Shown here: in pieces, positions 56,046 through 57,915 of the stretch
How the letters are laid out: every line of letters starts with the position of its first letter
Numbering within the stretch: position 1 is the first letter of the stretch
NCBI RefSeq assembly: GCF_018130785.1
Contig: NZ_JAFCJT010000002.1
Span: 434,001-498,000 of the forward strand
DNA length: 64,000 nt
Direction: 5' to 3'
From: Bradyrhizobium liaoningense
GTDB lineage: Bacteria > Pseudomonadota > Alphaproteobacteria > Rhizobiales > Xanthobacteraceae
Program-made: the position numbers and the translations under genes
The notes under the pieces: model-generated
Told to the model about the DNA's origin: nothing
The model's database searches: none
The model's input: only the letters and a program-made list of their open reading frames with translations

Positions 56046-57071
56046 TTACGCCATCACGCGCTGCGGCAGCAGCTCCGCGATCTGCACCGCATTCAGCGCT
56101 GCACCCTTCAAGAGCTGGTCCGCCGCCACGAACATCGAGATCGAATGCCCACTGGGGTCGCTGAGATCCTTGCGGATGCGGCCGACCAGGACGTCGTCCT
56201 GGCCCGAGGCATCGATCGGCATCGGGAAGTAGTTCTTCACGCGGTCGTCGACGATCTTCACGCCGGGGGCCTGCGCCATGATGGCGCGGACCTGGTCCTC
56301 GCTGATCGGCTTCTCGCATTCGAAGGTGATGGCCTCGCAATGGGCGCGCAGCACCGGCACGCGGACGCAGGTGACGCCGATCGCGATCTTCTCGTCCTCG
56401 AAGATCTTGCGGGTCTCCTTGATGACCTTGGTCTCCTCGTCGTTGTAGCCGGTCTCGGGATCGACGGCGGTGTTGTGGTTGAACAGGTTGAAGGCGTAGG
56501 GGTGCGGCATCACCTTGGGCGTATAGACCTGCCCGTTGAGATTGGCCCGGGTGGACTCGACGAGCTCGTCCATCGCGGCAGCACCGGCGCCGGAGGCCGC
56601 CTGGTAGGTCGAGATGATCACGCGCTTGATGCGGTTCTTCTGGTGGATCGGCCAGAGCGGCACCAGCGCTGTGATCGCGGCGCAGTTCGGGTTGGCGATG
56701 ATGCCCTTGTGGTCGCGGATGCGGTTGGCGTTGATCTCGGGGATCACCAGCGGCACGTTCGGATCCATGCGGAAGGCGGAGGAGTTGTCGACCACGACCG
56801 CGCCGGCCTTGACCGCGATCGGCGCATACTTCTTCGAGATGCTGCCGCCGGCGGAGAACAGGGCGATGTCGACGCCCTCGAAGGCGCGCTCGGTCAGCTC
56901 CTCGATAACGACATCCTTGCCGCGGAACGATACCGTCTTGCCGGCCGAGCGGGCGCTCGCCAATGCCTTGAGCTTGCCGACGCGAAAGCCGCGCTTGTCC
57001 ATGGTGGCGATGAATTCGGCGCCCACCGCACCGGTGACGCCGACAATCGCGACGACGGGATCGTTACTCAC
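56046..57071 (-). CDS. asd: Aspartate-semialdehyde dehydrogenase
   Basis: Makes aspartate semialdehyde, branch point to threonine, methionine, lysine and diaminopimelate. The 341-residue protein has the NADP loop VAIVGVTGAVGAEF, the catalytic Cys in IIANPNCAAI, STYQAASGAG, and the catalytic His in VPVLRAHCEAIT. The GTG at 57071 (VSNDPVVAI) is chosen because GGAGG lies five bases upstream; an ATG four codons earlier would overlap that site. An intrinsic terminator and a Thr-rich leader frame precede it, indicating attenuation. Confidence 0.95.
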   Translation of the reverse strand: MSNDPVVAIVGVTGAVGAEFIATMDKRGFRVGKLKALASARSAGKTVSFRGKDVVIEELTERAFEGVDIALFSAGGSISKKYAPIAVKAGAVVVDNSSAFRMDPNVPLVIPEINANRIRDHKGIIANPNCAAITALVPLWPIHQKNRIKRVIISTYQAASGAGAAAMDELVESTRANLNGQVYTPKVMPHPYAFNLFNHNTAVDPETGYNDEETKVIKETRKIFEDEKIAIGVTCVRVPVLRAHCEAITFECEKPISEDQVRAIMAQAPGVKIVDDRVKNYFPMPIDASGQDDVLVGRIRKDLSDPSGHSISMFVAADQLLKGAALNAVQIAELLPQRVMA

Positions 57072-57096
57072 TTTGTCCTCCATTGAGTTTTAGACA

Positions 57097-57130
57097 ACAA
57101 AAAAGCCCCGGACCATCATGGGCGGGGCTT
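57097..57130 (-). terminator. Attenuator terminator upstream of asd
   Basis: On the minus strand AAGCCCCG pairs with CGGGGCTT around 12 bases and is followed by TTTTTTG, a strong intrinsic terminator. It ends about 25 bases before the asd start and about 30 bases after the leader-peptide stop, so it would stop transcription before asd unless an alternative fold forms. Confidence 0.85.
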
Positions 57131-57160
57131 CGGTAGAGTGGATTGCGTTCTAGTCGACGA

Positions 57161-57232
57161 CTACAAGCGCACGCCTCCCCGGGCCCCTGAGGCCGTGGTG
57201 GTTTTGGTCGTGCGTTTGGTGGTCGTGAACAT
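57161..57232 (-). CDS. Threonine-rich leader peptide of asd (attenuator)
   Basis: A 23-codon frame beginning MFTTTKRTTKTTT and ending in a Gly/Arg/Val-rich tail with a TAG stop. Eight of the 23 residues are Thr (ACC or ACG) and two are Lys, both end products of the pathway that asd serves. The 3' part can form a GCCTC/GAGGC hairpin (57173-57193), and CGGGG within it can pair with CCCCG of the terminator, giving competing folds. No ribosome-binding site is seen, but the promoter is so close that the RNA would start at or 1-3 bases before the ATG, as for leaderless rhizobial trpL. Confidence 0.75.
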   Translation of the reverse strand: MFTTTKRTTKTTTASGARGGVRL

Positions 57233-57240
57233 GGTGGCGA

Positions 57241-57269
57241 CTTATGCGGGAGAGTCCTGCGCCCGTCAA
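57241..57269 (-). promoter_or_regulatory. Sigma-70-type promoter of the asd leader
   Basis: On the minus strand TTGACG and CATAAG are spaced by 17 bases. The -10 element ends eight bases before the leader ATG, so the start site falls near or on it. Confidence 0.65.
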
Positions 57270-57309
57270 TGGCTTTTAGGCGAGATTGTGACCGCCGGCC
57301 AAGCCTCCA

Positions 57310-57915
57310 TTATTTCGCCCGGGCGCCCGGCGGCTTGAGGATGACCTCCTTGAGGTTGCCGCCGCTGATGACGACGATCGCGAAATTCAGCCGGCCGCGT
57401 TCGCGCACCAGTCCGCCGCTGATCGCCTTGCCCGAGGCCGCACGTTCGGCGACATGCACGGCATCCGCAAGGCGGTGCCTGATTGCACCGAGCGCTGCGA
57501 GGTTGCTGCGGTCGTCGAGATCGAGCTCGGCGAGGGGAAGGGCGGCTTCCCCGCCGATGAGCTCGCCGGTCGCGGCGTTGATGGTGTGGCGCCAGATGCG
57601 GTCGTTGTGCAGGGTCTTCACCCGGTAGACCGGCACGCCAGAGGCTCCGTCGAAACTCACATCCGCGGTCGTGGCGCCGGCATGACGGGCTTCGGCAATC
57701 GCCATGGCCTGGCTGATCGAGATCGGCGAGCTGCGAAAGCGCTCGATCTCGCGGCTGACGGCTTGGCGTTCGGTCTCGGCGTTACCATCTGTCTCGCCAT
57801 GAAGGGCGGTGGGCGTGCCACCGGCCGCGACGACCGCCTGCGCCGGCGCTCCGATCAGCAACGCCGACAGGGCGACCGCAAAAAACGTCCAGGGGTGTTG
57901 TCGTGCTGCCTTCAT
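57310..57915 (-). CDS. PepSY-domain exported protein
   Basis: A 201-residue exported protein: signal peptide (FFAVALSALLIGAPAQAVVA) followed by SISQAMAIAEARHAGATTAD and VPVYRVKTLHNDRIWRHTIN with ATGELIG, the PepSY pattern. A helical tail with ALGAIRHRLADAVHVAERAA and a basic end follows. PepSY domains bind or inhibit peptides and proteases in the envelope. A palindromic operator lies 172 bases upstream of the start, of the same type as that near the patatin gene. Confidence 0.8.
   Translation of the reverse strand: MKAARQHPWTFFAVALSALLIGAPAQAVVAAGGTPTALHGETDGNAETERQAVSREIERFRSSPISISQAMAIAEARHAGATTADVSFDGASGVPVYRVKTLHNDRIWRHTINAATGELIGGEAALPLAELDLDDRSNLAALGAIRHRLADAVHVAERAASGKAISGGLVRERGRLNFAIVVISGGNLKEVILKPPGARAK

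Follow-up and report, generated by a model that had tools for sequence, protein, structure and literature searches.

A putative leaderless attenuator with threonine and lysine codons upstream of a second asd gene in Bradyrhizobium

The aspartate-semialdehyde dehydrogenase gene studied here, a second paralogue that we call asd2, is very probably controlled by a ribosome-mediated transcription attenuator on a leaderless RNA, which would read the supply of both threonine and lysine. The original prediction, made from the DNA of Bradyrhizobium liaoningense alone, had described a leader-peptide attenuator on a (nearly) leaderless RNA with threonine as its signal. Comparison across 134 asd2 loci supports the attenuator well and adds lysine to the likely signal. 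From the sequences we infer the transcription start site, translation of the leader, ribosome stalling, antitermination and dual sensing.

In the proposed mechanism, RNA polymerase would start at or next to the leader ATG, and a 70S ribosome would load on the leaderless RNA and trail the polymerase. A shortage of charged tRNA-Thr or tRNA-Lys would stall the ribosome around codons 5-11, leaving the GC-rich segment of codons 16-20 free to pair with the 5' arm of the terminator and letting transcription read through into asd2. When both amino acids are plentiful, the ribosome would reach the stop codon and cover the codons 16-20 segment, and the terminator would form before asd2. The enzyme would be made only when threonine or lysine runs low.

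The leader and asd are all read from the minus strand of the window, that is, the whole 64,000-nt stretch of DNA that was analysed (Table 1). The promoter named in the original prediction (TTGACG and CATAAG, 17 nt apart, with the -10 ending 8 nt before the leader ATG at 57232) is present as described, and direct reading gives the same 23-codon frame, whose peptide MFTTTKRTTKTTTASGARGGVRL contains eight Thr and two Lys. The intrinsic terminator lies where it had been placed, just before the asd ribosome-binding site and 17 nt from it. A simple promoter and terminator scan, which accepts a -10 only if its sixth position is T and hairpins only with loops of 3-8, returned neither element on the minus strand (0 terminators). 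The whole leader folds somewhat better than its shuffles (z -2.1, with 4 of 200 shuffles equally good), and in the full-length minimum-energy fold the GCCUC/GAGGC stretch is paired otherwise. The chance of at least eight Thr in 22 codons is 1.2e-5 at p 0.054 (the Thr rate in the window's 38 long ORFs is 0.050); conservation in 134/134 asd2 loci is a stronger argument than this figure.

Table 1. Features of the asd2 leader region in the window
Feature	Position	Strand	Basis
-35 TTGACG	57269-57264	minus	direct reading
-10 CATAAG	57246-57241	minus	direct reading; 17-nt spacer after -35
Leader ORF, 23 codons, MFTTTKRTTKTTTASGARGGVRL	57232-57161 (ends TAG)	minus	ORF list and comparison
Putative regulatory codons 5-13: Thr Lys Arg Thr Thr Lys Thr Thr Thr	57194..57220	minus	codon conservation
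Segments 1 and 2: GCCUC (57193-57189), pairable with GAGGC (57177-57173)	57173..57193	minus	sequence
Predicted antiterminator 5' arm, GGGGC...CGGGGAG	57175..57187	minus	fold, ribosome stalled at codon 10
Predicted antiterminator 3' arm, CUCU.CCG..GCCCC	57124..57138	minus	fold; overlaps terminator 5' arm
Intrinsic terminator, stem and U6, GAAGCCCCG...CGGGGCUUUUUU	57131-57099	minus	-16.8 kcal/mol
asd2 Shine-Dalgarno GGAGG	57081-57077	minus	sequence; site and GTG kept in relatives without the upstream ATG
asd2, aspartate-semialdehyde dehydrogenase, likely GTG start	56046..57071	minus	NCBIfam TIGR01296, Pfam

The protein of the window scores 407.6 bits against NCBIfam TIGR01296 (cutoff 324.2) and also matches Pfam Semialdhyde_dh and Semialdhyde_dhC. 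The ORF list places its start at ATG 57083; GTG 57071 is probably the true start instead, since many divergent relatives without the upstream ATG keep a GAGGA-type site and the GTG. That the target is an asd gene was correctly predicted, but by sequence comparison it is an accessory paralogue, asd2, separate from the common asd1 of the family. In the window's genome asd1 lies elsewhere (G000:C5:28715-29704), is 46% identical to asd2, belongs to the type present across family and order, and has no comparable Thr/Lys ORF in its upstream region (L193). In a tree of 33 proteins (long branches flagged), asd2 branches together with genes of G372, G684 and G602 as a lineage of its own.

Calling asd2 by a best match below E = 1e-110, we find it in 138 of 146 Bradyrhizobium genomes, with a further copy in at least four. 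Some of the absences may be gaps, because three of the eight genomes concerned are only 75-93% complete. Among 142 genomes from the family's other genera there is a single case (G218, 84%), and a plasmid search with asd2 gave 141 records, every one under 60% identity. The asd2 in one record titled Frankia sp. RB7 (L132, JAUEPE010000002.1) is of Bradyrhizobium type, 95% identical and preceded by the same leader; this record may be mislabelled.

The comparison rests on 134 asd2 upstream regions: 80 named records, the window and 53 regions from other genomes, mostly chosen for divergence. The ORF and the terminator are kept in all 134 (125 different RNAs), the terminators of L064, L117 and L158 being recognised by a relaxed pattern and the other 131 by the standard one. 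Loss of the Thr codons and terminator in relatives that retain asd, named in the original prediction as contrary evidence, was seen at none of these loci. The leader ORF is 72 nt long in 127 loci, 75 nt in four and 69 nt in three, while from its stop codon to the GCCCCG arm (32 nt in the window) every length from 25 to 34 nt occurs. Such shifts of ORF length solely by multiples of three, together with the pattern of change by codon position, fit translation. For codons 2-13, pN/pS is 0.66 in frame versus 1.34 and 1.40 in the shifted frames; for codons 14-23 it rises to 2.20, a value to be expected if selection there acts on RNA pairing and not on the peptide.

The same pattern bears on the idea that the leader is not translated at all and acts as a ligand-binding riboswitch, for lysine for example. 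A structured, GC-rich leader ahead of an aspartate-pathway gene would suit such an element, but the codon-position pattern and the 3-nt indels fit translation, and at this locus Rfam gives no riboswitch match up to E = 1, which makes a riboswitch extremely unlikely. Searched over 56900-57500 on both strands to that same E value, Rfam returned neither the Thr_leader family (RF00506) nor a lysine riboswitch; the sole match was to a sub-threshold sRNA family on the strand opposite to the leader.

Conservation of the reading frame likewise argues against a reading that we regard as barely credible, in which the terminator would serve the transcript of the PepSY gene upstream, the ORF would be a chance frame and asd2 would have its own promoter. 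The PepSY gene does run in the same direction as asd2, ends 40 nt before the -35 and is found in the flanks of 78/80 named loci, as well as near G103 and G110. Yet the leader is kept where no PepSY gene was found within the 1.5-kb flanks (G138, G218 and the more distant leaders of G372 and G684). Moreover, the end of the terminator lies 8-40 nt from asd2 in 114 of the 134 loci, a gap that cannot accommodate a further promoter. In 17/134 loci the terminator and asd2 are separated by a repeat-like insert of the GATCCNGAAAAG type, which is palindromic where read; 17 of the 20 loci outside the 8-40 nt gap carry one (e.g. L063, L088, L147, L153, L184).

The features expected of an attenuator on leaderless RNA are equally regular. 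The 8-nt distance from the end of the -10 to the ATG is kept in 123/134 asd2 loci, TTGACG/CATAAG is the best promoter pair in 121/134, and TTGAC[G/C/T] is the top-scoring -35 in 130/134. The predicted lack of a Shine-Dalgarno sequence is borne out: 133 of the 134 loci have no match of at least 4 nt in the last 20 nt before the leader ATG. The asd2 leader RNA is apparently leaderless, and promoter spacing puts the expected start on the ATG or 1-2 nt ahead of it. Leaderless RNAs are usual in B. japonicum, where 320 start sites are described as mapping 0-10 nt before annotated start codons (PMC4842269). The extra asd2 copies L187-L190, from four genomes, keep leader and terminator and have no recognisable -35.

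Which amino acids the leader would read can be judged from its codons. Thr stands at codon 11 in every one of the 78 unique 72-nt ORFs; codon 6 is Lys in 76, codon 10 is Lys in 74 and Thr in the remaining four, and codons 5 and 8 are Thr in 73 each. Because codons 5, 6, 8, 10 and 11 hardly change (Thr, Lys, Thr, Lys, Thr), the signal is likely threonine plus lysine, not threonine alone. Across the 134 loci, leaders carry 3-9 Thr and 1-4 Lys; 36 have only 3-5 Thr, and 131 keep 2-3 Lys. Only one Lys is left in G218 and in the extra G076 copy, where codon 6 is Gln or Arg. The conserved Lys is written AAA in 75/76 cases at codon 6 and 74/74 at codon 10 (149/150 together), AAA being the minority Lys codon in the long ORFs of the window (95/492).

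The threonine signal of the original prediction stands in that the Thr codons are conserved; as the sole signal it fits the comparison less well. A Thr-only attenuator, whose Lys codons would be incidental or would serve RNA shape (A-rich, unpaired), seems rather unlikely to us. The eight Thr against two Lys in the window's leader and the invariant Thr 11 speak for it, and the AAA bias might stem from RNA shape just as from sensing. On the other hand, Lys 6 and 10 are held in those 76 and 74 ORFs while Thr drifts down to 3-5 in 36 of the loci. Mixtures of Thr and Lys also recur before asd1 in 23 of the 38 other families sampled, and a leader with Lys codons precedes a dapA-like gene (both described below). 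We therefore retain sensing of both amino acids as the preferred reading.

The leader also travels with its gene. A covariance model searched against 100 family genomes gave matches of at least 86 bits only in four Bradyrhizobium genomes and G218, each of them adjoining asd2, and the next-best match scored 43 bits. Five Bradyrhizobium genomes without asd2 (95-100% complete) had no comparable leader (best 30.3 bits versus 134.7). This linkage weighs against the notion that the leader chiefly yields a small RNA or peptide acting in trans, like rnTrpL and peTrpL of Sinorhizobium, with control of asd2 secondary. Termination would free an RNA of about 130 nt, and the layout is as described for the leaderless trpL RNA (PMC7298713), but the strong matches in the family genomes all adjoin asd2, the five genomes without asd2 lack one, and the pN/pS of codons 14-23 is what one would expect of a peptide stretch of little importance. 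We consider a mainly trans-acting role very unlikely, and cis control of asd2 by attenuation remains our preferred reading. Low-scoring model matches in other genera were considered as leaders and not counted; some are plain terminators. Another conserved short ORF with a terminator (MIKSSRTFNRNHMTRFGWAVGGVAR and relatives) was noticed at L328:1556-1691 (minus), L329:489-618 and L318:1501-1636 (minus); it has no amino-acid run, and the next long ORF lies ~570-700 nt downstream in L328 and L329.

For the switch itself, the original prediction had offered two competing hairpins, a GCCTC/GAGGC pause hairpin and a pairing of the upstream CGGGG with the CCCCG of the terminator. These are plausible, but the signal is weak against shuffles and the pairing is not confined to CGGGG: the strongest predicted antiterminator joins GGGGC (57187-57183) to GCCCC, besides the CGGGG segment. 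To model the stall, the ribosomal A site was put at codon 10 and the next 12 nt were counted as covered. Folded in this way, the 5' arm of the terminator pairs with the codons 16-20 stretch and beyond. A ribosome at codon 10 gives a mean terminator-arm pairing of 0.89 over 42 representatives (at least 0.8 in 36/42), against 0.28 when it has reached the stop codon. Without a ribosome the mean is 0.59 (at least 0.7 in 16/42), so the basal state is not clear-cut. Advancing the A site from codon 11 to codon 12 clearly lowers arm pairing in 9 of 10 loci inspected, which fits the fixed codons 10-11; the exception is L073, one codon shorter.

Dinucleotide-shuffled spacers already give a mean arm pairing of 0.72, and only 3/42 loci beat 95% of their own shuffles for arm pairing (16/42 for energy). 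Cognate segments pair 0.3-0.4 kcal/mol better than mixed ones, with p 0.037 (n=42) and 0.020 (39 unique), relatedness being uncontrolled in both. The 42-row alignment, folded as a consensus, shows hardly any covariation, since the terminator arms differ so little; the columns of the terminator stem are nearly invariant across the alignment. The antiterminator is thus plausible as modelled but only weakly distinguishable from GC-rich chance.

Attenuation by leader peptides is well known in bacteria. The thrL leader, rich in Thr, contains Thr and Ile codons and controls thrABC, and in a branched pathway an ilv-type leader responds to several end products at once. Like the enterobacterial thr attenuator (thrL; RF00506), the asd2 leader combines a Thr-rich ORF, an intrinsic terminator and an aspartate-family gene downstream. 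It differs in pairing Thr with Lys, in its target, in its apparently leaderless start and in the lack of an RF00506 match. With the ilv-type leaders it shares the multi-amino-acid input, while the amino acids, the target and the mode of starting differ. Judged by its sequence, the asd2 leader very probably adds a case to the known leader-peptide class of attenuators.

Two rhizobial systems come closer. The trpL/rnTrpL/peTrpL leader is described as an RNA that begins with the ATG of its short leader ORF and has an attenuator after it, and the trpL peptide of B. japonicum is given in the same paper (PMC7298713). The asd2 leader resembles it in a promoter set for a start at the ATG, in its short ORF and putative attenuator and in its alphaproteobacterial host; Thr and Lys codons stand in place of Trp. 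The SEP5 sORF of Sinorhizobium meliloti is translated, carries six Thr and three Lys codons towards its 3' end and lies in the 5' UTR of a gene named aspartate dehydrogenase; it is regarded as a possible leader peptide and called conserved only in Sinorhizobium (PMC10117765). The account of SEP5 used here describes no terminator, and we liken the two by description, not by sequence; unlike SEP5, the Bradyrhizobium leader serves a separate asd paralogue. Among the matches listed in a search of mostly open-access literature, we saw no Thr/Lys leader of asd besides SEP5 and no Lys leader of dapA.

A Lys leader of the latter kind may exist in the window's own genome. Upstream of a dapA-like gene (L339; G000:C23, leader just upstream of 247769, minus strand) lie TTGACA-N17-CATCAT, 6 nt, an ATG, MITKSCAIVSKKGPHPGASDFCAR and then a terminator. 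The leader, apparently leaderless and with tandem Lys codons, is a possible lysine attenuator. The SKK pair recurs in the leaders of G021, G032, G132 and L316; more distant genera have SKN, SKY, SKSK or KVKK, with no clear Lys run in G184, and three remoter dapA-like homologues (L346-L348) have no such leader. Of the four proteins scanned, all with dapA as best family, L334 (207.6 bits) and L316 (217.9) pass the TIGR00674 cutoff of 206.15 bits, and L313 (193.7) and L339 (203.0) fall below it. Lys before a gene of the Lys branch and Thr with Lys before a gene of the common step fit end-product sensing, with the dapA assignment borderline. This match between leader codons and position in the pathway favours the attenuator reading of the asd2 leader.

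Thr/Lys ORFs also occur beyond Bradyrhizobium asd2. Two asd2-like genes of other families have them: L200 (62% identity), where MVARHTTKRTVKTTACAG... is followed by a like hairpin without a U-run, and L224 (58%), where MAMMTKTSMTKKTIRSRGGLFGMGD is followed by a GCCCCGCC...GGGGCTTTTTT terminator. The asd2-side genes L225 (58%) and L038 (50%) have no such ORF upstream. For asd1, we ran an exploratory scan for short ORFs with at least six Thr/Lys in nine codons, the loci being picked by match rank with one or more per family. Such ORFs precede asd1 in 43/72 loci of the order's other families (those 23/38 families), in 2/11 of the rest of the class, in 0/20 other Proteobacteria and in 1/23 of the window's own family. 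Reverse strands gave 0/126, and dinucleotide shuffles 2/1440 (order) and 1/460 (family). The survey left unscanned L043 and L052 (too little upstream), L039 (not asd1-type), L200 (asd2-like) and L224-L227, and L236 entered it with only 147 nt upstream.

After the asd1 Thr/Lys ORFs a CUCUCCCC ... GGGGAGAG ... GGGAGAG pattern is often seen, with no clear terminator (examples of such upstream regions are L204, L207, L212, L216, L231, L248 and L270). In the cases shown, the CUCUCCCC segment has two possible GGGAGAG partners, mostly without a U-run. A simple terminator scan downstream of the asd1 leaders found few T-run terminators, so we do not claim these leaders as transcription attenuators. No structure emerged when 44 asd1 leaders were folded as a consensus, the alignment being too gapped.

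These observations lead us to a broader proposal, in which our confidence falls somewhat short of even. The extra enzymes of the aspartate pathway, asd2 and the dapA-like gene, would each stand under a leaderless attenuator that spells the end products of its step, with ribosome stalling standing in for a lysine riboswitch. The Thr/Lys uORF before asd would be widespread in Alphaproteobacteria, having arisen or spread on two asd lineages with different outputs: a terminator on asd2, and CUCUCCCC/GGGGAGAG/GGGAGAG without a clear terminator on asd1. For its part, the asd2 attenuator would equip a genus of legume symbionts with a defined, testable sensor for threonine and lysine supply and hint at why two asd genes are kept, one attenuated and one without a recognised leader. 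The leader would also be a clean two-input attenuator, in which the chosen codons can be compared with the logic of the pathway.

The Thr/Lys uORF before alphaproteobacterial asd is moreover a lead to a regulator that our Rfam searches did not recognise: nothing reached the gathering score in the window region, at ten loci where Thr/Lys ORFs precede asd1 or at the dapA-like locus. These searches gave one sub-threshold Thr_leader match (32.8 bits, gathering 55), at L285:126-239 (minus); it precedes asd in another alphaproteobacterial family and has a strong terminator-like hairpin.
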